Shown here piece after piece: positions 19,039 to 31,452 of a DNA stretch of 46,850 nucleotides (position 1 is its first letter; the number at the start of each line of letters is the position of its first letter). The notes beneath the pieces are model-generated. The model had not been told where the DNA came from. It saw nothing but the letters and a program-made list of their open reading frames with translations, and made no database searches. Position numbers and translations under genes: made by a program. The DNA is from Bacteroidota bacterium (GTDB lineage Bacteria; Bacteroidota; Bacteroidia; Bacteroidales; F082): NCBI GenBank assembly GCA_009773165.1, contig WOUZ01000019.1, positions 1 through 46,850 of the forward strand, written 5' to 3'.

Positions 19039-20490
19039 ATGGATGTAACTAACTCTGACAATATACTCGAACAGGTAACAACCAGTGAATACAAATATGG
19101 TTTTTACACTGATATCGAAAATGATATGGCTCCTGTTGGACTCAACGAGAGCACTGTCCGGCTTATCTCAGCCAAAAAACTTGAGCCTGAATGGATGCTC
19201 GAATTCCGCCTTAAAGCCTTTCGCCATTGGCAAAGTCTTCAAGAACCTGAATGGGCACATATTCATTATCCGAAAATAAATTATCAGGACATTATCTATT
19301 ATGCTGCTCCGAAAAAGAAAAAAGAGCTTGCCAGTTTAGATGAGGTTGATCCTGAATTACTTGAGACTTTCAACAAATTAGGCATTTCACTCGACGAACA
19401 AAAAATGTTGTCGGGCGTAGCAGTTGATGCAGTCATCGATAGTGTTTCAGTTAAAACGACTTTCCAGGATACCCTTGCCCGTCATGGAATCATTTTTTGT
19501 TCCTTCAGCGAAGCAGTAAGGGAGCATCCTGAGTTGATAAAAAAATTCATGGGAAGCGTAGTCCCTTATACCGACAACTATTTTGCAGCGTTAAATTCTG
19601 CCGTTTTCAGTGATGGGTCGTTTTGCTATATTCCTGAGGGTGTGCGATGTCCGTTGGAGTTATCAACCTATTTCCGTATTAACGCCGCTAACACCGGGCA
19701 GTTTGAGCGTACACTCATCGTGGCCGAAAAAGGCAGCTATGTAAGTTATATGGAGGGATGTACCGCCCCTCAACGCGACGAAAACCAGCTTCATGCCGCT
19801 ATCGTTGAAATTATTGCCATGGATGATGCCGAAGTCAAATATTCGACAGTACAAAACTGGTATCCGGGTGACAAGGAAGGAAAAGGCGGAGTATACAATT
19901 TTGTAACCAAACGTGGTCTGTGTAAAGGCAAAAGGTCCAAAATAGCATGGACTCAGGTTGAGACAGGTTCAGCCATCACATGGAAATACCCAAGCTGTGT
20001 GCTGATGGGAGATAACTCCATTGGCGAGTTTTATTCCGTTGCAGTCACGAATAACTATCAACAGGCTGATACGGGAACCAAAATGATTCATATCGGCAAA
20101 AACACCCGTAGTACCATCATTTCCAAAGGTATATCGGCAGGTAAGAGTAACAATAGTTACAGGGGTTTGGTAAAAATTCTGTCAGGAGCTACCAATTCCC
20201 GCAATTTTTCACAATGCGACTCTTTACTTCTTGGCGATAAATGTGGTGCTCATACGTTTCCCTACATCGAAGCAAAGAATGAATCGAGTATCATCGAACA
20301 TGAAGCCACAACATCCAAAATATCTGAAGATCAACTTTTCTACTGCAATCAGCGAGGAATTGATACGGAAAAAGCAATTGGATTAATTGTAAACGGCTAT
20401 GCCAAAGAAGTACTCAATAAACTTCCTATGGAATTTGCTGTGGAAGCTCAAAAACTTCTGGCCATAACACTCGAAGGAAGTGTTGGTTAG
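19039..20490 (+). CDS. sufB: SufB, Fe-S cluster assembly scaffold
   Basis: 483 residues, the usual SufB length. SufB, with SufC and SufD, builds Fe-S clusters in the cytoplasm and accepts sulfur from SufS/SufE. Visible family blocks: [38 protein letters not shown], the beta-helix core [28 protein letters not shown] (the cluster/sulfur-accepting Cys region) and [13 protein letters not shown] near the C-terminus. First gene of sufB-C-D-S-E plus a DUF59 gene, all on the plus strand with short gaps (42, 9, 7, 43 and 15 bases). Confidence 0.97.
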
Positions 20491-20532
20491 TCATCTGAAA
20501 TACTTATAATGAAACTATAATTTTCACATAAT

Positions 20533-21288
20533 ATGTTACTCAATATAAAGAACTTACACGTTGAAATCGACGGTAAGGAAATCATCAAAGGGTTAAATCT
20601 GGGAGTCAATAAAGGAGAGGTTCATGCCATCATGGGGCCTAACGGTACGGGCAAAAGCACGCTTGCTGCAGCCATAACCGGCCGCGAAGGTTATGATATC
20701 ACAGAAGGTGAAATCTGGTTCAAAGGAACCAATATCATTGAAATGGATCCTGACGAAAGAGCCAATCTCGGTATTTTCCTAAGTTTTCAATATCCTGTTG
20801 AAATTCCCGGCGTGAGCATGACCAATTTCATGCGTACCGCCATCAATGCAAAAAGGGAATATAACGGGCAGCCTACAATACCAGCCGGTGAATTCCTGAA
20901 GATGATGGAAGAAAAGAAAAACCTTGTAGAAATTCATTCCAAGCTCACAAACCGTTCAGTAAATGAAGGTTTCTCGGGTGGAGAGAAAAAACGTAACGAG
21001 ATTTTTCAAATGGCAATGCTCGAACCTTCGCTTGCCATACTCGATGAAACGGATTCAGGACTCGACATTGATGCACTTAAAGTTGTTGCCAAAGGTGTGA
21101 ATCAGTTACGATCACAGGAAAATGCCTTTGTCATCATCACGCACTATCAACGTCTGCTTGATTATATCATTCCTGATTTTGTGCATGTACTTTACGATGG
21201 AAAAATTGTAAAAACAGGTGGAAAAAACTTAGCCCTTGAACTGGAAGCCAAAGGCTATGAATGGATTAAAGAACAACAATTCGTTTAG
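20533..21288 (+). CDS. sufC: SufC, Fe-S assembly ATPase
   Basis: 251 residues, an ABC-type ATPase. Walker A is GPNGTGKST (G35-T43), the Q loop SFQYPVEIPG, the SufC-type signature NEGFSGGEKKRNEI and Walker B LAILDETDSGLDID, where the final DETDSGLD is the SufC form. The H loop is IITHYQRLL. It is cytoplasmic and drives conformational change in SufBCD by ATP hydrolysis; there is no membrane partner. It sits between sufB and sufD as in most SUF operons. Confidence 0.97.
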   Translation: MLLNIKNLHVEIDGKEIIKGLNLGVNKGEVHAIMGPNGTGKSTLAAAITGREGYDITEGEIWFKGTNIIEMDPDERANLGIFLSFQYPVEIPGVSMTNFMRTAINAKREYNGQPTIPAGEFLKMMEEKKNLVEIHSKLTNRSVNEGFSGGEKKRNEIFQMAMLEPSLAILDETDSGLDIDALKVVAKGVNQLRSQENAFVIITHYQRLLDYIIPDFVHVLYDGKIVKTGGKNLALELEAKGYEWIKEQQFV

Positions 21289-21297
21289 CTCATCTGT

Positions 21298-22716
21298 ATG
21301 AAAACACAGGAAACAGACCAGTTCATAGGACTGGAAGAGCTGCTGATTCATCAGTTTGAAACGCATTCGGAGCTGCTGACAGCTAATGATACGCCAAAAG
21401 TAAAAGCTCTAAGACTTAAACATTTCGATGCCTTCCGGACAAAAGGCTTTCCCGACAGCAGCCAGGAAAAATGGAGGTTCACCGAAATTGAAACTGCATT
21501 GGATCAGGAGTTTAAACATGTTATTAAAGAAGTTAAAACTGATCGAAATATTGAAGAACTTTTCCGCTGTGAGGTTCATAACTTCAAATCGGAAATCATT
21601 TCTGTTCTAAACGGATGGTATCACAGCGAAAAGGGCGACCTTTTTACCAACGATGAAGGCGTTATTTATGGTTCACTCAAGGCCGCCAAATTAGCTTATC
21701 CCGGGTTGTTCGATACCTATTTCGGCGAAATCGCGCATAGCGAAAACAACAGTTTTGTTGACCTCAATACGGCTATGGCACAGGATGGCGTTTTCATTTA
21801 TGTGCCTGCAGGTATAGAAGCCTCTAAAACATTGCAGATCATCAAGATGATCGACCTGAATGAGAATATTTTTGTTCAAAACCGACAACTCATTATTCTT
21901 GAGGCCAATAGCAAACTTAGCCTTATGCACTGTGATGACTCTATCAATCATCATAGCAGTCTGGTTAACACTGTCACAGAGGTATTTGTTGGCGAAAACG
22001 CTCATTTTGAACTCTATAAACTTCAGAATCTAAACGATGCATCCGGCTTGATCAACTCCACATTTGTCAGGCAGGCAGCAGGAAGCACCATCAAAACCAA
22101 TACCTTAACATTTAATTGTGGTCTGATCCGCAACAATATTGAGGTTTCGCTGAATGGAAAAGGCGCACATGCCGATGTACTTGGATTGTACCTGATGGAT
22201 AAACAACAGCATGTTGATAATCAAATTCGCATTCTGCACAACGAGCCAAATTGCACCAGCAATGAGTTGTTTAAAGGTATCCTTGATGATGAAGCATCGG
22301 CAGTTTTCAATGGTTACATCTATGTGAAAAAAGACGCCCAGAAAACTAATGCCTACCAGAACAACAAAAACATACTTCTCAAACCAACGGCTACAATTAA
22401 CACCATGCCGTTTCTCGAAATCTATGCCGACGATGTGAAATGCAGCCATGGCGCTACCATCGGACAGCTGGATCAGGAAGCCATGTTTTACCTGCGGTCG
22501 CGGGGAATTAGTCAGTCCAATGCCAGATTATTGCTCATGTATGCTTTCGCAGCTGATGTGATAAACTCCATAAGCATCGAAGGACTAAAAACGCGTATCG
22601 ACGATATGGTGAAAAAACGTTTAAGAGGCGAGCTTTCGGTATGCGAAAAATGTGTGCTTCATTGTGGTTCACCCGAAAAAGAATACCATTTCGATATTGA
22701 CCTGAGTAAACTCTAA
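21298..22716 (+). CDS. sufD: SufD, Fe-S cluster assembly protein
   Basis: 472 residues. It pairs with SufB and SufC. Family blocks: WRFTEIE near the N-terminus, the central beta helix (NLNDASGLINSTFVRQAAGSTIKTN), and the conserved EIYADDVKCSHGATIGQLDQEAMFYLRSRGI with the functionally important His. The C-terminal tail is unusual: after KKRLRGELSV it has C-x2-C-x3-C (CEKCVLHC) and then an acidic end. The E. coli SufD lacks these Cys as far as I recall; the cluster could bind metal or a cluster. The gene starts 9 bases after sufC and ends 7 bases before sufS. Confidence 0.95.
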   Translation: MKTQETDQFIGLEELLIHQFETHSELLTANDTPKVKALRLKHFDAFRTKGFPDSSQEKWRFTEIETALDQEFKHVIKEVKTDRNIEELFRCEVHNFKSEIISVLNGWYHSEKGDLFTNDEGVIYGSLKAAKLAYPGLFDTYFGEIAHSENNSFVDLNTAMAQDGVFIYVPAGIEASKTLQIIKMIDLNENIFVQNRQLIILEANSKLSLMHCDDSINHHSSLVNTVTEVFVGENAHFELYKLQNLNDASGLINSTFVRQAAGSTIKTNTLTFNCGLIRNNIEVSLNGKGAHADVLGLYLMDKQQHVDNQIRILHNEPNCTSNELFKGILDDEASAVFNGYIYVKKDAQKTNAYQNNKNILLKPTATINTMPFLEIYADDVKCSHGATIGQLDQEAMFYLRSRGISQSNARLLLMYAFAADVINSISIEGLKTRIDDMVKKRLRGELSVCEKCVLHCGSPEKEYHFDIDLSKL

Positions 22717-22723
22717 AAATATT

Positions 22724-23950
22724 ATGAACCCAAATCTGGATGTTTCTGCAATTCGGGCCGACTTCCCTGCCTTACATCAGCAGGTTTTCAAAAAACCACT
22801 GGTTTATCTCGACAATGCAGCAACTACCCAAAAACCAAAAGTTGTAATTGAACGGTTGCAACATTATTACGAGCTGGAAAACAGCAACATACACAGGGGT
22901 GTTCATCATCTAAGTCAACAGGCTACAGTTGCATTTGAGCAAGCTCGAAAAACCATTGCTGAATTAGTTCATGCAGCCAATTCTTATGAAATCATCTTCA
23001 CCCGTGGCACAACCGAGTCCGTGAATCTTGTTGCCTCTTCCCTTGGCCGTTTGCTGATGAAAAAAGGCGATCATGTTCTGGTTACAGCCATTGAACATCA
23101 TAGTAATATGGTACCCTGGCAGCAACTATGCGAGCAATACGACTCAAATCTTTTAGTAGCACGTTTCGATCAACAGGGTGTGATTGATCTTGAGCATTAC
23201 CAGCAACTTTTGGAAAAAAGGCCAAAAATTGTTGCTATAGCGCATATATCCAATGCTTTAGGAACTATCAATCCGGTGAAAGAAATGATAAGCATGGCGC
23301 ACAAACTGGATATTCCTGTTTTGGTTGACGGAGCTCAGTCCATAGCTCATTGCCCAATCGATGTTCAGGATTTGGATTGTGACTTTTATGCTTTCTCAGC
23401 TCATAAAGCCTACGGACCTATGGGTATCGGAGTTTTATATGGCAAAGAAAAATGGCTCGAAAAGATGCCACCTTATCAGTTTGGGGGAGAAATGGTAGAT
23501 CAGGTTAGCTTTGAAAAAACCAGTTTCAACTGCCTTCCTTTCAAATTTGAAGCCGGAACTCCCAATGTGGGCGGTGTTTTAGGAATGGAAACGGCAATGA
23601 ATTACATCCTTGAAAAAGGATATGATGCCATAGCAGCACACGAAAACGCTTTGCTTGCCTACGCTACCCAACAACTCAAAAACATTGAAGGCTTGCGGAT
23701 TTTTGGTGAATCACCAAATAAAGCATCGGTGATTTCTTTTTTGGTACATGAGATTCATCCCTTTGATTTGGGTACTTTATTGGATAAAATGGGCATAGCC
23801 TTGCGAACAGGACATCATTGTGCTCAACCTATCATGGACTTCTACAACATTCCTGGTACAGTAAGAGCTTCATTTGCAATGTATAACACTTTCGAAGAAG
23901 TTGACGTGCTGATACAGGCAATAAAGAAAGCGTCGGCCATGTTGAGGTGA
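22724..23950 (+). CDS. sufS: SufS, cysteine desulfurase
   Basis: 408 residues, a fold-type I PLP enzyme that takes sulfur from cysteine for Fe-S assembly. The PLP Lys is in FYAFSAHKAYGPMGIG, the PLP-phosphate region in ITRGTTESVNLVAS-like FTRGTTESVN, and the substrate His in AIEHHSNMVPW. The catalytic Cys is in the RTGHHCAQPIMDFY loop, the short-loop type II form expected of SufS, which needs SufE as its sulfur acceptor. That acceptor is encoded next. Confidence 0.97.
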   Translation: MNPNLDVSAIRADFPALHQQVFKKPLVYLDNAATTQKPKVVIERLQHYYELENSNIHRGVHHLSQQATVAFEQARKTIAELVHAANSYEIIFTRGTTESVNLVASSLGRLLMKKGDHVLVTAIEHHSNMVPWQQLCEQYDSNLLVARFDQQGVIDLEHYQQLLEKRPKIVAIAHISNALGTINPVKEMISMAHKLDIPVLVDGAQSIAHCPIDVQDLDCDFYAFSAHKAYGPMGIGVLYGKEKWLEKMPPYQFGGEMVDQVSFEKTSFNCLPFKFEAGTPNVGGVLGMETAMNYILEKGYDAIAAHENALLAYATQQLKNIEGLRIFGESPNKASVISFLVHEIHPFDLGTLLDKMGIALRTGHHCAQPIMDFYNIPGTVRASFAMYNTFEEVDVLIQAIKKASAMLR

Positions 23951-23993
23951 TAATCCGAATTTAACTTGCTGAAAATCATCTAAAAAGAAAAAT

Positions 23994-24416
23994 ATGAGCA
24001 TCGAATCCATTCAACAAACTATCATTGATGAATTTTCGTCCTTCGACGACTGGATGGACAAGTATAACCTCCTGATCGAGATGGGAAAAGACACTCCAAT
24101 GATAGAGGCACAATATAAAACAAATAATCACTTGATAAGTGGCTGTCAATCACGCGTATGGCTACATGCTTCCTATCGTGATGGCAAGGTATACTTTACC
24201 GCTGACAGCGATGCAGTAATCACTAAAGGTATTGTAAACCTGCTGATTCGGGTGTTTTCCGAACAGACGCCAGATGCCATATTGAATGTCGATTTGGGAT
24301 TTCTGGATAAAATAGGATTAAAAGAACACTTGTCACCAACCCGATCCAACGGGTTGCTTTCAATGGTAAAACAGATGAAGATGTATGCACAAGTGTTTAA
24401 ACTCAAAAATGGATAA
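23994..24416 (+). CDS. sufE: SufE, sulfur acceptor
   Basis: 140 residues. The sulfur-accepting Cys is in NNHLISGCQSRVWLHA, the SufE signature, and SFDDWMDKYNLLIEMGKD at the N-terminus is also typical. It takes persulfide from SufS and passes it to SufB in the cytoplasm. It starts 43 bases after sufS. In contrast to E. coli, it lies downstream of sufS within the same operon. Confidence 0.95.
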   Translation: MSIESIQQTIIDEFSSFDDWMDKYNLLIEMGKDTPMIEAQYKTNNHLISGCQSRVWLHASYRDGKVYFTADSDAVITKGIVNLLIRVFSEQTPDAILNVDLGFLDKIGLKEHLSPTRSNGLLSMVKQMKMYAQVFKLKNG

Positions 24417-24431
24417 TTCAAAAATAAACAT

Positions 24432-24752
24432 ATGACAACAAGTGAACGCCGAGCCATTGAGGTAGATGTAATCACCGTTTTACGAACCATATACGACCCT
24501 GAGATCCCGGTAAATATTTATGAATTAGGTCTCATATATGAAATCAGTATTACCGACGAAGCCGATGTAAAAGTCTTGATGACACTTACTTCGCCAAATT
24601 GTCCCGTTGCAGAAAGCTTGCCGCAGGAAGTAAAAGAAAAGATCAATCTGGTTAAAAATATCCGGTCCGCAGATGTAGAATTAACTTTTGAGCCATCGTG
24701 GGATCAAAGCATGCTGAGCGAAGAGGCAAAACTTGAGCTCGGTTTTCTTTAA
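24432..24752 (+). CDS. SUF-associated DUF59/MIP18 protein
   Basis: 106 residues, all one DUF59 (MIP18-like) domain: IDVITVLRTIYDPEIPVNIYELGLIYEI-type N-terminus, then VKVLMTLTSPNCPVAESLP with the conserved Cys, and the C-terminal LTFEPSWDQSMLSEEAKLELGF. This is the SUF-system accessory protein found at the end of Bacteroidetes suf operons and similar to SufT. Its role is in maturation or delivery of Fe-S clusters; the mechanism is not settled. Last gene of the operon, convergent with the minus-strand gene at 24822. Confidence 0.93.
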   Translation: MTTSERRAIEVDVITVLRTIYDPEIPVNIYELGLIYEISITDEADVKVLMTLTSPNCPVAESLPQEVKEKINLVKNIRSADVELTFEPSWDQSMLSEEAKLELGFL

Positions 24753-24821: not shown

Positions 24822-25895
24822 TCATTTTACCCGAAAGATATAAATCTCTTTCAGGGCTTTAACTGAACGGTCAGCAAAAAAATCAGATGGCATAAAAATA
24901 CGAAACCTGCCTCCGTCGCTCTCATCGTTGCATTCGTCTAAAATTGGTGAAACTTGATCCGTTCGATTAAACAACTCACTGCAGCTGAATATACTACGAT
25001 ATCCGTCAACACTTACAAAACAAAGCAAACCAGTCCGTAACAGCTCATCATCTATTGTGACACTACCTTTCAGAACTTCATCAAGCGCTGGTCCCCGAAA
25101 CGATCCTGAAGGATGGTAACCCATTCCCATTCCATAAAATAATGTTTCGTAAGTTCTCATATCCTTTCCATGATTATTATCAATTTGAGCAGTCTGCCCG
25201 TCCTCTATCACAATCTTTATAGAAGGACTGTGTAAAGGTTTCATGTTTCTCTGAATAGCATATTCTTTACGATCGAACGACCTGACAGTAATTTTTGTTG
25301 GGTTGACAAGCTGACGAGAGTTGCGCAGATCGCCACTTGCAACAATTTTCCAGTCAGTATCTTTTGGATAATCAACTGTTTTTTTATGGGGATTAACCTG
25401 ACTTCCACCGGTAGCAATTAACACCTGATGCAGATTGTTAGTTTGAAATATCTCACTCCACGAAAACACAATACGTTCGCCTGCAGCATTTTCAATTTCG
25501 ATATAAGTATCAATAACAGGACGAAACTGTTCTGCATTTTTTTTCTGAAGAAGAAAGGGATTCAGAATATCAAGCAAGGAATAACCTGTATAACGGTAAG
25601 CTCCAATAAACTCAACACTATCGTTTATAACCTTTGACTCTTTAATGACCACTTCGTGCATGTACAATTTTTCAAGTGATACCATCCCTGGACTTGCTAC
25701 CTCGCCCACAACTTCCAGTGATCCTGCTTTCATTTTATAACCTTCTGAACTGTGGTACATACTATTTCCATTTACTTGAATGGTTGCGGCAGAAATACCA
25801 TCAATTGGCCTGTCGGATGCAATTCTAATCCATAAAAACACTGCGATTAGGATTACGGTTATTAGGATTATGGTAAGTTTTTTCATCTTATTCAT
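24822..25895 (-). CDS. Membrane-anchored protein with two sulfite-oxidase-fold repeats
   Basis: 357 residues from ATG 25895 (a longer frame begins at 25949 but would cross the operator at 25896-25928; ATG 25886 is also possible). An N-terminal hydrophobic stretch (residues 7-24) is a signal anchor, so the rest is periplasmic. Two halves look alike and like the molybdopterin-binding (SUOX) fold: YTGYSLLDIL with VFSWSEIF in the first, FRGPALDEVL with GYRSIFSCSELF in the second. Only three Cys are present (C292, C305, C322), and none sits in a clear molybdenum-ligand motif, so enzyme activity is doubtful; binding a pterin or oxyanion is a guess. A ModE-like box lies directly ahead of the start codon. 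Convergent with the SUF operon. Confidence 0.68.
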   Translation of the reverse strand: MNKMKKLTIILITVILIAVFLWIRIASDRPIDGISAATIQVNGNSMYHSSEGYKMKAGSLEVVGEVASPGMVSLEKLYMHEVVIKESKVINDSVEFIGAYRYTGYSLLDILNPFLLQKKNAEQFRPVIDTYIEIENAAGERIVFSWSEIFQTNNLHQVLIATGGSQVNPHKKTVDYPKDTDWKIVASGDLRNSRQLVNPTKITVRSFDRKEYAIQRNMKPLHSPSIKIVIEDGQTAQIDNNHGKDMRTYETLFYGMGMGYHPSGSFRGPALDEVLKGSVTIDDELLRTGLLCFVSVDGYRSIFSCSELFNRTDQVSPILDECNDESDGGRFRIFMPSDFFADRSVKALKEIYIFRVK

Positions 25896-25928
25896 TTTTG
25901 CGTTATGTATTTTCTGCATATCGCAAAA
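25896..25928. promoter_or_regulatory. ModE-like inverted repeat, site A
   Basis: Arms TTTTGCGTTATGTA (25896-25909) and TGCATATCGCAAAA (25915-25928) around the 5-base spacer TTTTC; 12 of 14 positions are complementary. The half-sites CGTTATGTA and TGCATATCG resemble the CGTTATnT / AnATAACG halves of ModE operators. It touches the start codon of the minus-strand gene and overlaps a possible GAATTTTG -7 element (minus strand, 25924-25931), a position suited to repression. The ModE-like gene starts 176 bases to its right. Confidence 0.6.
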
Positions 25929-26003
25929 TTCCAACTTTTCTACATACAAATAACCGCTAAAAGCTATTTAAACAGGTTCTAAATATTAAGAAATTTATTT
26001 ATA

Positions 26004-26011
26004 TATATTTG
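26004..26011 (+). promoter_or_regulatory. Possible -7 box (TATATTTG) of the ModE-like regulator
   Basis: TATATTTG fits TAnnTTTG. A poorer box, TAATCTTG, lies at 26082-26089, closer to the ATG at 26104. Either could serve. Confidence 0.35.
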
Positions 26012-26103
26012 GTATTCAATGATATAATATAAGAAACAAAAACATAGGTTTGAGCTTTGTTTGTTTGAATGAATATTTCTTTAATCTTGTAAAAAAAATA
26101 GTC

Positions 26104-26475
26104 ATGTCAGATGATCTTCATTTGAGGTTAAAGTACAAATTCTGGATTGAAACAAGTCTGGGAGAAAGTATTTTGGGTGAAGGGAAATGGCTGCTGCTCA
26201 AAGCTATAAGAGACACAGGTTCGCTGCAAGCTGCTGTAAAAGAAAGAGGTTATGCTTATCGGCAGACCTGGGAAAATCTTAAAAAAATAGAGGATAAGCT
26301 TGGCTTTCAGCTGATTGAAAAAAACAGAGGAGGTGAGCAAGGAGGTCATACAAAGCTTACAACGAAAGGTGAAATGGTGGTTTCATTTTTCGATGAACTG
26401 TATGAGCAAGCCAATCCCGAAATAGAAAAGTTGTTTCAACACATGTTGGATAACCTGCAAAAACTTAAGGATTAA
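26104..26475 (+). CDS. ModE-like one-domain winged-helix regulator
   Basis: 123 residues from ATG 26104; a TTG 18 codons upstream would add residues outside the domain. The whole protein matches the DNA-binding N-terminus of ModE: GKWLLLKAIRDTGSLQAAV, then YAYRQTWENLKKIEDKLG (the recognition helix area) and the glycine-rich wing NRGGEQGGHTKLTTKGE. E. coli ModE has two C-terminal Mop domains that bind molybdate; these are absent here, so the signal must be sensed in another way or by a partner. It is divergent from the sulfite-oxidase-fold gene and convergent with the TonB-receptor operon. Two ModE-like boxes lie beside those targets. Likely a transcription regulator of this locus. Confidence 0.85.
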   Translation: MSDDLHLRLKYKFWIETSLGESILGEGKWLLLKAIRDTGSLQAAVKERGYAYRQTWENLKKIEDKLGFQLIEKNRGGEQGGHTKLTTKGEMVVSFFDELYEQANPEIEKLFQHMLDNLQKLKD

Positions 26476-26513
26476 CACCTCTAAAGCAGCAGAATTAATC
26501 TACTTTTCGAGAA

Positions 26514-28850
26514 TTATTCAACTTTTTTTTGCCAAAGTTTGCCTGTCACTTCAACAACGATAAATCTTCCTGGCCCAACAGCTCCCTGACTTTCATAAAC
26601 TTTAGTATCCAAAAGATTCTGAATACTTAAGGCAACATTCAAATGTCTGTAAAATTCACGCTGTATTTTCAAGTCAACTGTCATTGTTGCAGGATATTGA
26701 TTACTGCCTACAATGTCGTCAAAAATGTTTTGGTCGTTGATGAACATCTTACCTGTAAACCGGCCTGTTAGGCCAATATTAACCCAATCAGAACGATAAA
26801 ATGTTCCAAAAGAAACAGCATGTCCGGGAATATCAGTAAGGTATTTTCCTGTTAAGTCAACATTTGCTACAGCATTTTCTGCTGAATATTTCTTTATCCG
26901 GGAAGAAGTATAAGCATAAGTTCCAAAAAAATTGAGGAAATTATAAGGTGAAAAAGTGACCTCACTCTCTATTCCATAAATTTCAACACTGGAAATATTC
27001 GAGCGAATCATGATTGGTCGGTTTCCAAATCCCATATCGATGCTATCACCCGTGGATACATAATAAAGAAAATCACTACCCATTGAATAATAAGCACTTG
27101 CAGATATTTTCATCCATGTTGCAGGTTTAAAATCAGCTCCTATTTCAATGTTATCTATAAATTCGGGTTTAAGGTCAGGTCGGGCTACTTTAAAACCACC
27201 CCTAACCCTTCCGGAACGACAAAGGTCATCAAGTACAGATGGGCGGAAACCTCGGCTATATCCTCCATACAAACGAAAGCTGTCATCAGGTTTGAATTGT
27301 ATTGAAATGCGGGGACTTAACGCTCCCCAGGTTTGATTACTCTGGTCGCTGAACTGATATTGATTCATAAAATTTGTTTCAGCAGAAGGCTGATGAATGA
27401 TAAAAGCTCCATCGTAAAAAACAGAATAATCATACCGTAAGCCGGCAACCAACTGCATTCTTCCGTCAAAAAAATTCAACTGATCCTGAATATAGAACCC
27501 TAAAAACCGAATTTTACCTTTATTATCAACCTGATCAGTTGAGGTATAGTAAATGTCGGAGGCATCAACTGCTCCATTTCGTAGATCGAATCCGGCAGAA
27601 AAGGTATGTAGTCCAAACTCCCGGCTAAGTCCAGATAATAATCCATAATCTTCACGCACTGAAAGCACATCGTACCAGGTATAATCGTCTTTTTGCCATT
27701 CGCTCACACGCTTATAGCGTTCGTGAAGGTAAAACAAGGAAGCGTTCCAATTCCACAACCCTTCTTTTCCTGAAAATACTGAACGCAGACTATACGTATC
27801 ATGGTCTGTTGTGTTTCCATGTAATTGATTTACTTTCTCCCCTGTTTCCCGGCGATCATCAAAAACTGAAATATCAATACCTGCCTCAAAGCGTTCTGTT
27901 TTGCGATAGCCAGCCCTAAGCCCCAGCATCTTTTCCTCGAAAGTTGATGGAACTATATATGGATTTGCTTGCTGATCGGCCCAGGATTGTGTGATATAGC
28001 CGTCACTATCGCGGAAAAAAGCACCTGCAGACCAATAAAAACCCGATTTCAAGCTGCTGCCTGCATTTGCTTTTATGCCTCGGGTGTTGTAGGTTCCGTA
28101 AGAAAGTCCCAGCGATGCTTCAGGATTTACTGATGGTTTTTTTCGAATAATATTGATAACACCTCCCATTGCATTTCCACCATAAAGTGCTGATCCAGGA
28201 CCTTTTACAACCTCAACCCGTTCCACATCCAGCATCGAGATCAGATTCCAGTTTACTGAACCACCATCAGCTTTATTCACTGGAACTCCATCAACAAGAA
28301 CCAGAGTGCGCGCCTGTTCTTTACTGCTCATACCACGCATTGAAACAGTGGATTTGTGAGAAAACAAACCAAACGAACGACTTACCTGTATGCCTGGAAG
28401 CAGCGAGATTACCTCATCAATTGATTGATTGGATGTGAGTTGTAGTTTTTCAGGGCTGATTAGTTCAATCCTGCCCGGTATATTACTGATTCGATTTTCA
28501 GTTCGGGTAGCTGTTACAACTACTTCATCCAAACGTTGAGATTCTTCGGAGAGATAGACAGTAATTTGGTTGCCTTTCGAATCTGTATCCACTTCAACAG
28601 ACTTTGTACTTGGCTGATATCCAACAGCTGTTACCTGTAAAAATAATTTCCCGGTTTCAAATGTTTCAAACTCAAAAGCGCCCGTGACATCAGTGGCTGT
28701 AATCTGTTTACCAAGTGATACATGAGCGCCTGAAACAGGGTACAAAGTTCCGGATTCAAGCACCTTTCCACTTACTTTAATCTGAGCCTGAAGTTGACCC
28801 GCCAACAACATTACTATAACAAAAACCGTTAAAAATCTTGTCCTCATCAT
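26514..28850 (-). CDS. TonB-dependent outer-membrane receptor
   Basis: 778 residues. Signal peptide to about residue 22, a carboxypeptidase-regulatory-like domain at about 25-105 (VSGKVLESGTLYPVSGAHVSLG...), a plug at about 115-230 (RLDEVVVTATR, then DVERVEVVKGPGSALYGGNAMGGVINII) and a 22-strand-type barrel ending NLLDTKVYESQGAVGPGRFIVVEVTGKLW. It moves a ligand across the outer membrane using TonB energy. Unlike SusC it is under 800 residues and has no SusD partner; it resembles receptors for metal chelates, cofactors or vitamins. Its ATG overlaps the stop of the preceding lipoprotein gene, and the operon begins behind a ModE-like box. The ligand is not known; a molybdate- or tungstate-related ligand is inferred from the regulator. 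Confidence 0.9.
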   Translation of the reverse strand: MMRTRFLTVFVIVMLLAGQLQAQIKVSGKVLESGTLYPVSGAHVSLGKQITATDVTGAFEFETFETGKLFLQVTAVGYQPSTKSVEVDTDSKGNQITVYLSEESQRLDEVVVTATRTENRISNIPGRIELISPEKLQLTSNQSIDEVISLLPGIQVSRSFGLFSHKSTVSMRGMSSKEQARTLVLVDGVPVNKADGGSVNWNLISMLDVERVEVVKGPGSALYGGNAMGGVINIIRKKPSVNPEASLGLSYGTYNTRGIKANAGSSLKSGFYWSAGAFFRDSDGYITQSWADQQANPYIVPSTFEEKMLGLRAGYRKTERFEAGIDISVFDDRRETGEKVNQLHGNTTDHDTYSLRSVFSGKEGLWNWNASLFYLHERYKRVSEWQKDDYTWYDVLSVREDYGLLSGLSREFGLHTFSAGFDLRNGAVDASDIYYTSTDQVDNKGKIRFLGFYIQDQLNFFDGRMQLVAGLRYDYSVFYDGAFIIHQPSAETNFMNQYQFSDQSNQTWGALSPRISIQFKPDDSFRLYGGYSRGFRPSVLDDLCRSGRVRGGFKVARPDLKPEFIDNIEIGADFKPATWMKISASAYYSMGSDFLYYVSTGDSIDMGFGNRPIMIRSNISSVEIYGIESEVTFSPYNFLNFFGTYAYTSSRIKKYSAENAVANVDLTGKYLTDIPGHAVSFGTFYRSDWVNIGLTGRFTGKMFINDQNIFDDIVGSNQYPATMTVDLKIQREFYRHLNVALSIQNLLDTKVYESQGAVGPGRFIVVEVTGKLWQKKVE

Positions 28851-29755
28851 GGTTGAATTTTAACTTCAAACTCCATTACACCATCTGTATCAATATCAGA
28901 ACGTTTCATTTTAATCATGCCATATTTTCCATCTTCCGTCTTAAATGGTATCACACGTCCTGCATATGCGTATTTACACAAACCGCTGACATTTCCGGGT
29001 TTGTATGCCGAAACTAACAAACTATCATTGGCAGCACCATCAAATTGCGCCTCACTGATAAGTTGATTATCAGAAGTATAATAATCATAAAGGGTAGAAT
29101 TACGTGTCACCCAATTAGTAATGGCAGGATAATGACCGGTTACAGAACTACTTCCGGAATAGGCAGGACAGCACAATGTTGGCGACATGACACCTCCTGT
29201 CTGATACACAAATCCTACCATATCGATAGCGGCCTCATGACCTGAAACCGAAGTGGAAGTATATAAAGCTCCTGAATGTAAGTCGAGATACTGTGGCAGA
29301 CTTGAGTGGTTCTGCATACCTATGATAATTGATGGAAAATGCAAAACAGGGCCATAAGCTGATCCTTCCCCGAGCAAAACAGTAAGCGAAAACTGTGTGG
29401 TATCACGATTGGCATTCATTACCATAAAGGTCCAGGTTTCGATGGCTTCAGCAGATTTAACTGCATTGAAGGTATAATCAAGACCTCCTTGAGGAATATA
29501 TAATCCTTTATCAAGTTCTGTTATTGTCTTTCCTCCAGCGATACGTCTTATGCGCAAATTGGTAATGGGCGCGCTTCCTTCAATAGCTGTGATCCCAAAA
29601 GAAAGTTTACCACCAACAGGTACTGATGATCCGTCAATAGTAAAATCACCTGTTTTCATCACAATCATGGGTTTAATACGCTCCTCCTCTGTTTTGGAAC
29701 AACCCACAAAAAACATTATGAAAACTAAAAATGCGATTCGTTGTATCACAGGCAA
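28847..29755 (-). CDS. Receptor-associated lipoprotein, paralogue of the upstream lipoprotein
   Basis: About 302 residues from a TTG at 29755; a GTG two codons in (29749) is equally possible, and no ATG precedes the signal. The signal ends in FFVGC (C19), a lipobox. The body is beta-rich with a CC pair in TLCCPAY and another Cys in GLCKYAY. The C-terminus (IPFKTEDGKYGMIKM...DGVMEFEVKIQP) is clearly related to that of the neighbouring lipoprotein (YAFKTAAGTFGVLKV...GYVEFEYKVK). Its stop overlaps the receptor's ATG, so the two are coupled. Probably a surface or periplasmic ligand-capturing partner of the receptor; function not recognised. Confidence 0.7.
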   Translation of the reverse strand: MPVIQRIAFLVFIMFFVGCSKTEEERIKPMIVMKTGDFTIDGSSVPVGGKLSFGITAIEGSAPITNLRIRRIAGGKTITELDKGLYIPQGGLDYTFNAVKSAEAIETWTFMVMNANRDTTQFSLTVLLGEGSAYGPVLHFPSIIIGMQNHSSLPQYLDLHSGALYTSTSVSGHEAAIDMVGFVYQTGGVMSPTLCCPAYSGSSSVTGHYPAITNWVTRNSTLYDYYTSDNQLISEAQFDGAANDSLLVSAYKPGNVSGLCKYAYAGRVIPFKTEDGKYGMIKMKRSDIDTDGVMEFEVKIQP

Positions 29756-29852
29756 TTTATTAAAAGGATTAAAATCAACTTTGAACTCCGTTTAGGATTT
29801 TGAAGAAACAAGGGTTTGGGTAATGATTACACACTACCCAAACCGCTTAAAA

Positions 29853-30428
29853 TTATTTTACTTTATATTCAAATTCAACATAACCTGATGCGCCCTGTTC
29901 AACGGCAGTGACTTTGAGTACGCCAAAAGTTCCTGCTGCTGTTTTAAAGGCATACATATCATTCACTTTCATGTCTTTTTTCTTACGGTTGCCACTTGTT
30001 ACTGTTTCATCATAATAACCTTGAATGACAGCATCTCCATCAGTAAGTTGGTCAAACTGTACAGTTGTGATTTCTGTTGCCGGATTGGTGAAGTAGGTTT
30101 GATTGGTGGTTGTCCAGTTATCAGGGGCATTATCACCTGTGAAAATTCCGTCGATACCGGTCCCTGGAGCAGCCAAAGCAATATTGTTTCCGCTTGCTTC
30201 TTCATAGAAACAAAGGATGTCAATCTTATCCTGTTGTTGGAATGCTTCTGACATGGTATAGACTTTTTTGGCACTGACAGATAAAAATCCGCCAACAGCA
30301 GTGTTCGATTGTGCACCAAGGCGTGCAATGTTTTTCTGTGGTTCGGGATCTTCATCTTTTTTGCATCCTGCTACAAAGATCATCATTGCAATTAAAAAGC
30401 TTGCTAATACTAAAGTTTTGGTTTTCAT
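29853..30428 (-). CDS. Small lipoprotein, first gene of the ModE-box receptor operon
   Basis: 191 residues from ATG 30428. A frame extending to 30491 runs through the operator and is not used. The signal ends in FVAGC (C22). The mature part is a beta-rich domain of about 165 residues, with GTFGVLKVTAVEQGASGYVEFEYKVK at the end, shared with the next gene's product. It resembles the general class of small Bacteroidetes lipoproteins paired with TonB receptors, such as HmuY-like ones, but I cannot assign a family. It lies 98 bases upstream of the second lipoprotein gene, probably in the same transcript, and 31 bases downstream of site B. Confidence 0.72.
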   Translation of the reverse strand: MKTKTLVLASFLIAMMIFVAGCKKDEDPEPQKNIARLGAQSNTAVGGFLSVSAKKVYTMSEAFQQQDKIDILCFYEEASGNNIALAAPGTGIDGIFTGDNAPDNWTTTNQTYFTNPATEITTVQFDQLTDGDAVIQGYYDETVTSGNRKKKDMKVNDMYAFKTAAGTFGVLKVTAVEQGASGYVEFEYKVK

Positions 30429-30459
30429 ACAATTAAATTTATTCAAATGTGTTTCGTTT

Positions 30460-30486
30460 ACCGACATGCATTTTCTGCATATCGGT
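30460..30486. promoter_or_regulatory. ModE-like inverted repeat, site B
   Basis: Arms ACCGACATGCA (30460-30470) and TGCATATCGGT (30476-30486) around the same spacer TTTTC as site A; 10 of 11 arm positions are complementary. Over the 23-base core from CG to CG, sites A and B agree at 20 positions. Centre is about 45 bases upstream of the lipoprotein ATG at 30428. Confidence 0.6.
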
Positions 30487-30657
30487 TGCAAAGAAAATAA
30501 TAATCTTTGAGCCTTTCAACCAGAAAAGCAATTTGTATTGATTCAAAATAAGAAGAAACAAACATTGAGGGTCTGTCAGGCAATAGTAATTATTCCTGAT
30601 TATTTCATTATTCAGTGATTGAAACAGATTGTAAATCAGTATTTAGATGTAGAGCAC

Positions 30658-31452
30658 TTATTCGCTTTCTCTAATTCCACTTGCGTTATCGATCAATGCA
30701 AGTGAGGCGTCTTTACCTAGATAACGATCGATTATATAATGTATCCAGTAAATTACCGGAGTGAGGACAATAGCAAAAGTCACCTTGTAAATATATTGAG
30801 TAAGTCCTACCGAAACAACTTGAAGGAAACTCCAGTTACCCAACCAGTAAAAAGCAATAAAAAGGATAAGGAAGCTGTCGATAAACTGTGATACGATGGT
30901 CGATCCTGTTGCTCTGAGCCAAAGCATTTTGTGGTTGGTGAGTTTACGCAGAAAATGAAAGGTGTGCATATCCACCAGCTGCCCAACGAGAAAAGCTGTA
31001 ATCGAACCAACAATAATTCCAAGTCCCTGCCTGAAAATGGTATCATACGCATATTCAATATTGAATGGCTGTCCGTTGGCATCGGTATTGTTGAGTTCCA
31101 GCCAGAAATCTGCAGCAGGTAGATGTGTGCCAGCAAAGATGATGACAAAGGCATAAGCTATAAGACCGGCAGCCATGTAACTTATGCGTCGAACCCCCGA
31201 CTTACCGAAATACTCATTGATGATATCGGAAAGGATAAATACAGCAGGCCAGATAAGAATGCCGACACTCATGTTCATGCTGATGACCGAGTCAAAGATG
31301 AATGGTAAGTTTAATGGTTCTATTCCTAATATTTTCTCAACCGAAAACATTTTCACACCAATTACTTCAGCAACAATGGCATTTGTCAGGAACACAGCTG
31401 CCAGCAATAGATAGAGTCGTGTTTCCTTGTTGTTAAAATTGAGGTTTTTCAT
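30658..31452 (-). CDS. yhhQ: Queuosine precursor transporter, YhhQ family
   Basis: 264 residues with about seven hydrophobic helices and little soluble sequence. Family blocks are the early AAVFLTNAIVAEVIGVKMF, VFILSDIINEYFGKSGVRR, and the TGSTIVSQFIDSFLILFIAFYWLG segment, where the Gln-Asp pair in SQFID is characteristic. It imports preQ0, preQ1 or a related queuine precursor across the inner membrane for tRNA modification. The substrate is inferred from E. coli YhhQ. No preQ1 riboswitch was found in the 5' region. Confidence 0.92.
   Translation of the reverse strand: MKNLNFNNKETRLYLLLAAVFLTNAIVAEVIGVKMFSVEKILGIEPLNLPFIFDSVISMNMSVGILIWPAVFILSDIINEYFGKSGVRRISYMAAGLIAYAFVIIFAGTHLPAADFWLELNNTDANGQPFNIEYAYDTIFRQGLGIIVGSITAFLVGQLVDMHTFHFLRKLTNHKMLWLRATGSTIVSQFIDSFLILFIAFYWLGNWSFLQVVSVGLTQYIYKVTFAIVLTPVIYWIHYIIDRYLGKDASLALIDNASGIRESE

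Follow-up and report, generated by a model that had tools for sequence, protein, structure and literature searches.

What does a TonB-dependent receptor import when its operon lies behind an operator of the ModE type? The question is raised by a five-gene locus in the window analysed here, a 46,850-nucleotide stretch (contig C16) of a 4.38 Mb, 98.85% complete assembly whose named relatives are Bacteroidota. The locus encodes a protein with a predicted sulfite-oxidase/PruR-like fold (SOF), a one-domain ModE-like protein (ModE2), a TonB-dependent receptor and two lipoproteins (LP2 and LP1), and it carries two predicted ModE-type operators, boxes A and B. We consider it probable, at roughly 75%, that the locus is a molybdenum/tungsten acquisition unit with TonB-dependent import under the control of ModE2; tungstate is a likely cargo. 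A first-pass annotation of this DNA had proposed one regulated system for moving molybdate, tungstate or a pterin-bound form across the outer membrane, and this proposal gains support from the conserved boxes and from neighbouring genes for Wtp (tungstate transporter), MoeA, MoaA, tungsten aldehyde ferredoxin oxidoreductase (AOR) and ModE-like proteins. The parts are of known kinds; a TonB receptor that is under ModE-type control and has an SOF partner is apparently an undescribed combination. Literature searches found no description of a TonB receptor for molybdate or tungstate in the titles and abstract openings among the matches listed, and the terms 'TonB' and 'outer membrane' are absent from the main text of a tungsten enzyme survey (PMC13328260).

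Box A (CGTTATGTATTTTCTGCATATCG, positions 25901-25923, composed of CGTTATGTA-TTTTC-TGCATATCG) and box B (CGACATGCATTTTCTGCATATCG, 30462-30484, composed of CGACATGCA-TTTTC-TGCATATCG) share a 5-base spacer and differ at 3 of 23 positions, in agreement with the 20 identical positions counted earlier. Box B sits in the promoter of the LP1-LP2-receptor operon. Box A had been placed at the start of the SOF gene; it does lie at the SOF promoter, 6-28 bases upstream of a plausible ATG at 25895 that was picked by alignment, and would be intragenic only with a start at the TTG at 25949, where the longest open reading frame begins. The half-sites had also been likened to Escherichia coli ModE operators, which is right: CGTTATGTA is identical to the right half of the E. 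coli K-12 modA operator (CGTTATATTGTCGCCTACATAACG) on the opposite strand, but the E. coli spacer has 6 bases rather than 5. According to PMC545781 the E. coli-type consensus reads ATCGNTATATA-N6-TATATANCGAT, and a 6-base spacer does occur in the window's own genome at the promoter of ModE1, the paralog of ModE2.

A search of this assembly with CGNYATGYATTTTCTGCATATCG, a pattern derived from boxes A and B themselves, recovered both boxes at 0 mismatches and, at up to 3 mismatches, one 3-mismatch site within an open reading frame, with 0 sites for the reversed-pattern control. A looser spacer-5 pattern, matched exactly, returned boxes A and B and one site within an open reading frame, its control giving 0. 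Neither of these two pattern searches found a third intergenic spacer-5 box in the assembly; own-genome matches in L011, L101 and L126 each fall in an open reading frame and were taken as chance matches. Across 16 genomes, the looser pattern gave 16 forward against 9 control sites, with 7 of the 16 being promoter boxes of this system; it is noisy and has little power alone. A spacer-6 pattern gave 20 forward against 8 control sites, those in other genomes inspected in part. Conservation at the same promoters in relatives is better evidence than such pattern counts.

Such conservation was found. The five-gene set recurs together with both boxes in three related genomes, G007 (L061), G008 (L064) and G026 (L067), with proteins 45-77% identical and the boxes intact. 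In a fourth, G193 (L088), four of the genes are present with boxes whose spacers are 6 bases long, and the contig stops before the receptor. The comparison with relatives that had been suggested as a check thus left the first-pass proposal standing, in G193 as far as the contig reaches. A weight matrix was trained on these ten boxes, two of which (L088) were picked by eye; the E. coli modA operator scored 17.4 bits, and all ten training boxes scored higher (18.9-28.8 bits). At 18 bits or more, the matrix found 47 sites (10 being the training boxes) in 0.70 Mb of loci, mostly picked for a ModE-like or SOF gene, compared to 4 sites in 2.09 Mb of shuffled sequence.

The position of the boxes bears on their mode of action. 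In 50 of 81 box-bearing promoters, some with ambiguous gene assignments, a TTTG, which we take to be the end of the Bacteroidota -7 element (presumed consensus TAnnTTTG), ends no more than 10 bases 5' of the box, compared to 35 of 324 control stretches further upstream. In the window, one such TTTG (25924-25927, minus strand) directly abuts box A, and another (30489-30492, minus strand) is located 4 bases upstream of box B. As the boxes are just downstream of the putative -7 element, they probably cover the transcription start. This promoter position, the one line of evidence on the point, suggests that the box-binding regulator is a repressor.

The gene neighbourhoods connect these elements to molybdenum and tungsten. 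ModE-like genes in the family are found alongside AOR, ThiF, MoeA, MoaA, MoaC, MOSC and WtpA genes, which were named by eye first and then checked through representatives against profile cut-offs. MoaA, MoaC and ThiF representatives pass their curated cut-offs, MoeA and MOSC pass those of Pfam, and AOR passes AFOR_N; WtpA in L090 and L095 passes the curated cut-off of the NCBIfam tungstate WtpA model TIGR03730, and WtpB and WtpC representatives have the Wtp models as their best match, below cut-off. AFOR_N genes occur in 14 of the 16 genomes examined, including all five with the window's gene set. The two others are G001, with neither a ModE-like gene nor a pattern match, and G002, which also lacks a ModE-like gene and has a single loose spacer-5 match.

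Relatives of SOF were sought in named contigs, several of which are the same contigs as in the genomes above, and the best 80 of 178 were analysed. Within 6 kb of SOF, 37 of the 80 loci have WtpA or WtpB (40 when WtpC was counted as well, a query that also matches unrelated ATP-binding cassette (ABC) ATPases), 29 have a receptor, 27 a ModE-like gene and 11 both Wtp and receptor genes; altogether, 59 have at least one of the molybdenum/tungsten or receptor genes sought. One locus (L169) contains ModE, WtpA, LP2, receptor, SOF, WtpB, WtpC, MoeA and MoaA together with an AOR gene that is truncated at the contig end. Another (L153), from the isolate Perlabentimonas gracilis M08_MB, combines LP1, LP2, receptor and SOF with a box. 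ModE-like genes are found in 13 of 15 genomes with SOF, compared to 35 of the 173 genomes of the family overall (Fisher test, 9e-9, genomes counted as independent). The window's own genome encodes a WtpA-like protein in L046 and WtpB/C-like proteins in L218, and the TonB system seems to complement an ABC transporter of the Wtp type instead of replacing one. The context somewhat favours tungsten over molybdenum, because a box is present at one of the own AOR genes and relatives' WtpA passes the tungstate model; Wtp-type transporters handle both oxyanions.

An approach that uses neither ModE nor the boxes starts from the lipoprotein. LP2-like proteins were searched in the 173 family genomes, and strong matches (at least 225 bits) were found in 26, of which 25 also have a ModE-like gene, compared to the 35 of 173 overall (Fisher test, 5e-21, genomes counted as independent); the sole exception is G003. 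Twenty of the 26 loci were fetched anew for this test, the other 6 having been examined already. A receptor lies beside the lipoprotein gene in all 20, and a ModE-type box of at least 16 bits, the threshold used here, is located at or overlapping the lipoprotein start in 19, always with a 6-base spacer; shuffled sequence gave 10 sites at this threshold per 2.09 Mb. Seven of these loci (L253-L259) are clusters of AOR, ModE1, lipoprotein, receptor and MoeA genes, with MoaA also in view in six.

The candidate regulator, ModE2 (26104-26475, plus strand), is a predicted DNA-binding protein of 123 residues. The ModE-type winged helix recognised earlier at these coordinates is confirmed by NCBIfam TIGR00637 (E-value 7.3e-19, 67.7 bits), below the curated cut-off of 98.5 bits, which is passed in none of the 173 family genomes. 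The protein, aligned to E. coli ModE, ends after the DNA-binding domain, with no molybdate-binding Mop domains found, and was therefore filed as ModE-like and not as ModE. It resembles E. coli ModE in the winged-helix domain, the half-site CGTTATGTA, an operator near the promoter and targets that include molybdenum/tungsten transport genes. In contrast to E. coli ModE, it consists of the DNA-binding domain only, its putative operators have spacers of 5 and not 6 bases, and the putative targets at this locus include a TonB receptor and lipoproteins. One-domain ModE-like proteins occur elsewhere, as exemplified by a 135-residue PDB entry (2ijl) and by a Desulfovibrio protein whose sensing mechanism is called not clear in PMC545781; the site predicted there for Desulfovibrio, CGGTCACG-N14-CGTGACCG, differs from the E. 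coli-type boxes of the window.

The own genome has two ModE-like paralogs. ModE2, in the window, accompanies the spacer-5 boxes, whereas ModE1, on contig C34, has a spacer-6 box ahead and a WtpA-like gene after it, forming a ModE1-WtpA operon; a spacer-6 box is also found at one of the own AOR genes (L219). Among 52 ModE-like proteins placed in a tree, the ModE2 clade (n = 14; support 93/88, below the level that the tool marks with a star) comprises 10 loci with spacer-5 boxes, one with spacer 6 (L163, from G193) and three without a box. Outside this clade, 26 loci have spacer 6 (including L134, which branches beside the clade), L042 has spacers of 6 and 7 bases, and 11 lack a box. On the tree, the spacer-5 label requires 2 changes compared to 9.0 in shuffles; 0 of 500 shuffles came down to 2. 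Thus the spacer length follows the ModE clade, with exceptions such as L200, left out of the tree by the length filter, where a spacer-5 box accompanies a ModE1-like gene broken by one stop. G005 provides a natural test: its single ModE-like gene is of the ModE1 type, and a spacer-6 box precedes its LP1-LP2-receptor operon, which is orthologous to that of the window (60-71% identical), in agreement with the spacer following the clade. The box of G003 has the same sequence as that of G005 and may not be an independent case. From this distribution we infer that the two ModE regulons are insulated by spacer length, with each paralog presumably binding the boxes that it accompanies. Such insulation is not universal, as G193 encodes two ModE-like proteins, and the operons examined there have spacer-6 boxes. 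The spacer split between ModE-like paralogs offers a compact test case of regulator insulation. As a side observation, a distant third ModE-like clade (L045:11394-13993 and L059:9460-11972) adjoins a TonB receptor of another type, and pairs of ModE-like protein and receptor may have arisen more than once.

The order lipoprotein-lipoprotein-receptor downstream of box B, read off earlier, is confirmed by the open reading frames and domain matches. The receptor (26514-28850, minus strand; 778 residues) consists of a CarbopepD_reg_2 domain, a plug (PF07715) and a barrel (PF00593), the latter two far above cut-off. Between the FRxP and NPxL motifs, most SOF-linked receptors share a stretch like LDDLCRSGRxRGGFK, with the cysteine in 28 of 31 aligned receptors; in the window this region (27162-27233, minus strand) reads LDDLCRSGRVRGGFKVARPDLKPE. 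LP2 (28847-29755, minus strand; 302 residues) was modelled with a mean predicted local distance difference test (pLDDT) score of 93.4, and a Foldseek search gave the DUF4466 protein 4ei0 as the closest structure (E-value 1.7e-9). As the template modelling (TM) score is only 0.35, the similarity may extend over part of the protein only. LP1 (29853-30428, minus strand; 191 residues) resembles the C-terminal part of LP2 and has acidic residues following its lipobox cysteine. Neither lipoprotein matches a Pfam family above cut-off. An HmuY-like nature of LP1 and LP2 was considered and dropped: besides the Pfam result, LP2 has no PDB sequence match, and no HmuY is among the 50 Foldseek matches listed for LP2. 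By a rough script, the eight residues after the lipobox cysteine contain on average 3.5 acidic residues in relatives of LP1 and 2.2 in those of LP2. This stretch resembles what we take to be the surface-export signal of Bacteroidota lipoproteins, and both proteins are probably surface-exposed.

SOF (24822-25895, minus strand; 357 residues) has an N-terminal membrane anchor, two repeats visible by eye and no Pfam family. Its model, built from 43 sequences, has a mean pLDDT of 90.0. Structural similarity search gave the pterin-binding protein PruR (PDB 7kom) as the top match, with an E-value of 1.2e-4, a probability of 1.00 and a TM score of 0.63 relative to the target (0.26 relative to the query). 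Further matches have E-values of 0.019 or worse, sulfite oxidase (3r18) ranking third at 0.02. The predicted fold thus best, if weakly, resembles PruR, a sulfite-oxidase-like fold lacking the cysteine. At the sequence level, the SOF profile has no match in the PDB up to an E-value of 10, and PF00174 does not match the window's protein and matches 2 of the 43 members, the best at 0.029. Among the 43 SOFs no cysteine is invariant that could serve as molybdenum ligand: the lipobox cysteine occurs in 31 and one other cysteine column in 21. Since a conserved ligand cysteine is lacking and the best fold match is PruR, the evidence does not make SOF a molybdenum cofactor (Moco) enzyme. Trp146 is invariant in the 43 SOFs (aligned among SOFs only); pterin holders of the PruR type are a Trp and a Tyr/Phe.

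Close SOF relatives carry, in addition, a candidate flavin attachment site. Of the 80 SOFs, 24 have the exact motif for flavinylation by ApbE, D-x-x-[S/T]-G-A-[S/T] according to PMC12052999; all of them belong to the close subfamily (L130-L153 and L163), which has 25 members, and none to the 55 others. One relative reads DAISGAT, L130 has the near-motif DAITSAT, and the window's SOF has DGISAAT (25782-25802, minus strand), one change from the motif; an ApbE gene is present. SOF resembles PruR in its predicted fold without the molybdenum-ligand cysteine and in its presumed export, and differs from PruR in being about twice as long, in the frequent lipobox cysteine, in lying near Wtp, ModE and TonB genes and in the flavinylation motif of its close relatives. 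A separate SOF subfamily (L185, L197, L198, L201, L206, L207 and L208) is fused to a C-terminal Asparaginase_2 domain (PF01112, checked in L197); these proteins have 643-648 residues, with none of the sought molybdenum/tungsten genes within 6 kb.

On this basis we propose how the acquisition unit might work. LP1 and LP2 would capture a molybdenum/tungsten species (tungstate, molybdate or a chelate) at the cell surface, and the receptor would draw it across the outer membrane with TonB energy. The anchored SOF, presumably periplasmic, may handle this species or a partner pterin. Import of the oxyanion into the cell, for tungsten/molybdenum enzymes, would fall to an ABC transporter of the Wtp type that is encoded at another site. 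When the metals are ample, ModE2 would repress SOF and the LP1-LP2-receptor operon by binding the operators over their transcription starts; when they are scarce, it would release the operators, so that SOF, LP1, LP2 and the receptor are made.

The most serious competing explanation concerns the cargo: the receptor and lipoproteins could import a pterin or a metal-pterin compound of the molybdopterin kind instead of a free or otherwise chelated oxyanion, with SOF as the periplasmic binder. The top fold match of SOF to PruR speaks for this, as do the absence of an invariant cysteine in SOF, PruR likewise lacking the molybdenum-ligand cysteine (PMC13259868), and the presence of MoeA and MoaA within 6 kb of SOF in 9 of 80 loci each. 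We nevertheless think it unlikely, because SOF also occurs within Wtp operons, which carry oxyanions, only one Foldseek match passes an E-value of 0.001, and the PruR pocket, according to its description, likely cannot accommodate Moco. A bolder variant, which we regard as doubtful, joins several of these threads: the cargo might be a metal-pterin or other 'tungstophore' that is freed in the periplasm by a flavin-carrying SOF, while the two ModE paralogs would keep separate regulons, one for the tungsten enzyme and ABC transporter and one for outer-membrane uptake, by a one-base difference in spacer.

It is also conceivable, though improbable, that the one-domain ModE-like protein does not respond to metal and that the boxes serve another signal, for example aldehyde or redox stress handled by AOR. 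ModE2 indeed has no sensory domain, and AOR is among the box-bearing genes, but the same boxes lie ahead of WtpA operons, ModE-like operons and receptor operons linked to MoeA/MoaA, and the half-site is that of the E. coli ModE operator. The chance seems slighter still that the receptor imports an iron, heme or cobalamin compound, ModE control merely matching the demand of iron-sulfur proteins and molybdoenzymes. The best NCBIfam match of the receptor is the heme receptor subfamily TIGR01785, below cut-off, and iron-sulfur (SUF) genes are found next door. HmuR-type heme receptors, however, have a conserved histidine between FRAP and NPNL, and the corresponding FRxP-NPxL stretch of the 31 aligned receptors has no conserved histidine and, in 28 of them, the cysteine instead. 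Moreover, lipoprotein-receptor pairs lie in AOR/MoeA/MoaA clusters, and SOF and receptor occur together near Wtp genes.

Several observations weigh against a molybdenum/tungsten acquisition unit under ModE2. The lack of Mop domains in ModE2 is one; the one Mop match in the own assembly, below cut-off, is in a WtpC-like ATPase, through which sensing in trans would be possible. Oxyanions usually cross the outer membrane via porins, leaving the need for a TonB receptor unexplained. G004 has AOR without a ModE-like gene, and G003 (L087, L252) has SOF, the LP1-LP2-receptor operon, spacer-6 boxes and AOR, with no ModE-like gene found. One of the 20 newly fetched LP2 loci (L261) has no box, and the lipoprotein family reaches weaker paralogs without molybdenum/tungsten context; four such loci were fetched, with neither a box nor a match to the receptor queries. 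Among the 80 SOF loci, 21 have none of the sought genes within 6 kb; in 14 of these the flanking sequence falls short of 12 kb, and in 7 the flanks are complete. TonB receptors are common in Bacteroidota, which weakens the count of 29 of 80 near SOF. As to the G003 assembly itself, it has ~430 contigs and 9% contamination.

Set beside known systems, the proposed acquisition unit combines familiar elements. Bacteroidota uptake systems of TonB receptor and surface lipoprotein typically encode the lipoprotein or lipoproteins and the receptor in one operon, with a CarbopepD_reg domain on the receptor, and the window's system has the same make-up. It differs in that LP1 and LP2 match neither SusD nor HmuY at the Pfam cut-offs and in its ties to molybdenum/tungsten genes and ModE-type boxes. 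WtpABC and ModABC transporters carry boxes of the same type and are often neighbours in relatives; they serve the inner-membrane step only, whereas the window's system would supply the outer-membrane step. Known cargoes of TonB receptors are iron, heme, B12, glycans, nickel, zinc and copper, and a dedicated outer-membrane route for molybdenum/tungsten would add a new nutrient to TonB uptake. It would also suggest that in some habitats these oxyanions are so scarce or chelated that energised uptake is worth its cost. In addition, candidate functions are provided for two lipoprotein families without a name, for a sulfite-oxidase-fold family that lacks annotation and for a receptor subgroup recognisable by a shared stretch.

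On one side of the five genes lies a SUF iron-sulfur operon, on the other a gene for a queuosine-precursor transporter. The former (19039-24752; SufB, SufC, SufD, SufS, a SufE-like and a SUF-associated protein) directly adjoins SOF, and parts of it are also seen by eye near the gene set in L064, L067 and L087. The latter (30658-31452; TIGR00697, above cut-off) is the next gene upstream of box B and has the same orientation. Elsewhere, a protein with an IGIDDTDN-type start is encoded near or adjoining ModE1 or a lipoprotein-receptor pair (L048:5125-5871, L057:9853-10602, L153:5104-5850 and L253:6951-7697). In L048, L153 and L253 the same holds for a membrane-type protein of ~190 residues, whose L253 copy has no Pfam match; the L253 copy of the IGIDDTDN-type protein has methanogenesis marker 11 as its best NCBIfam match, below cut-off, followed by TiaS.

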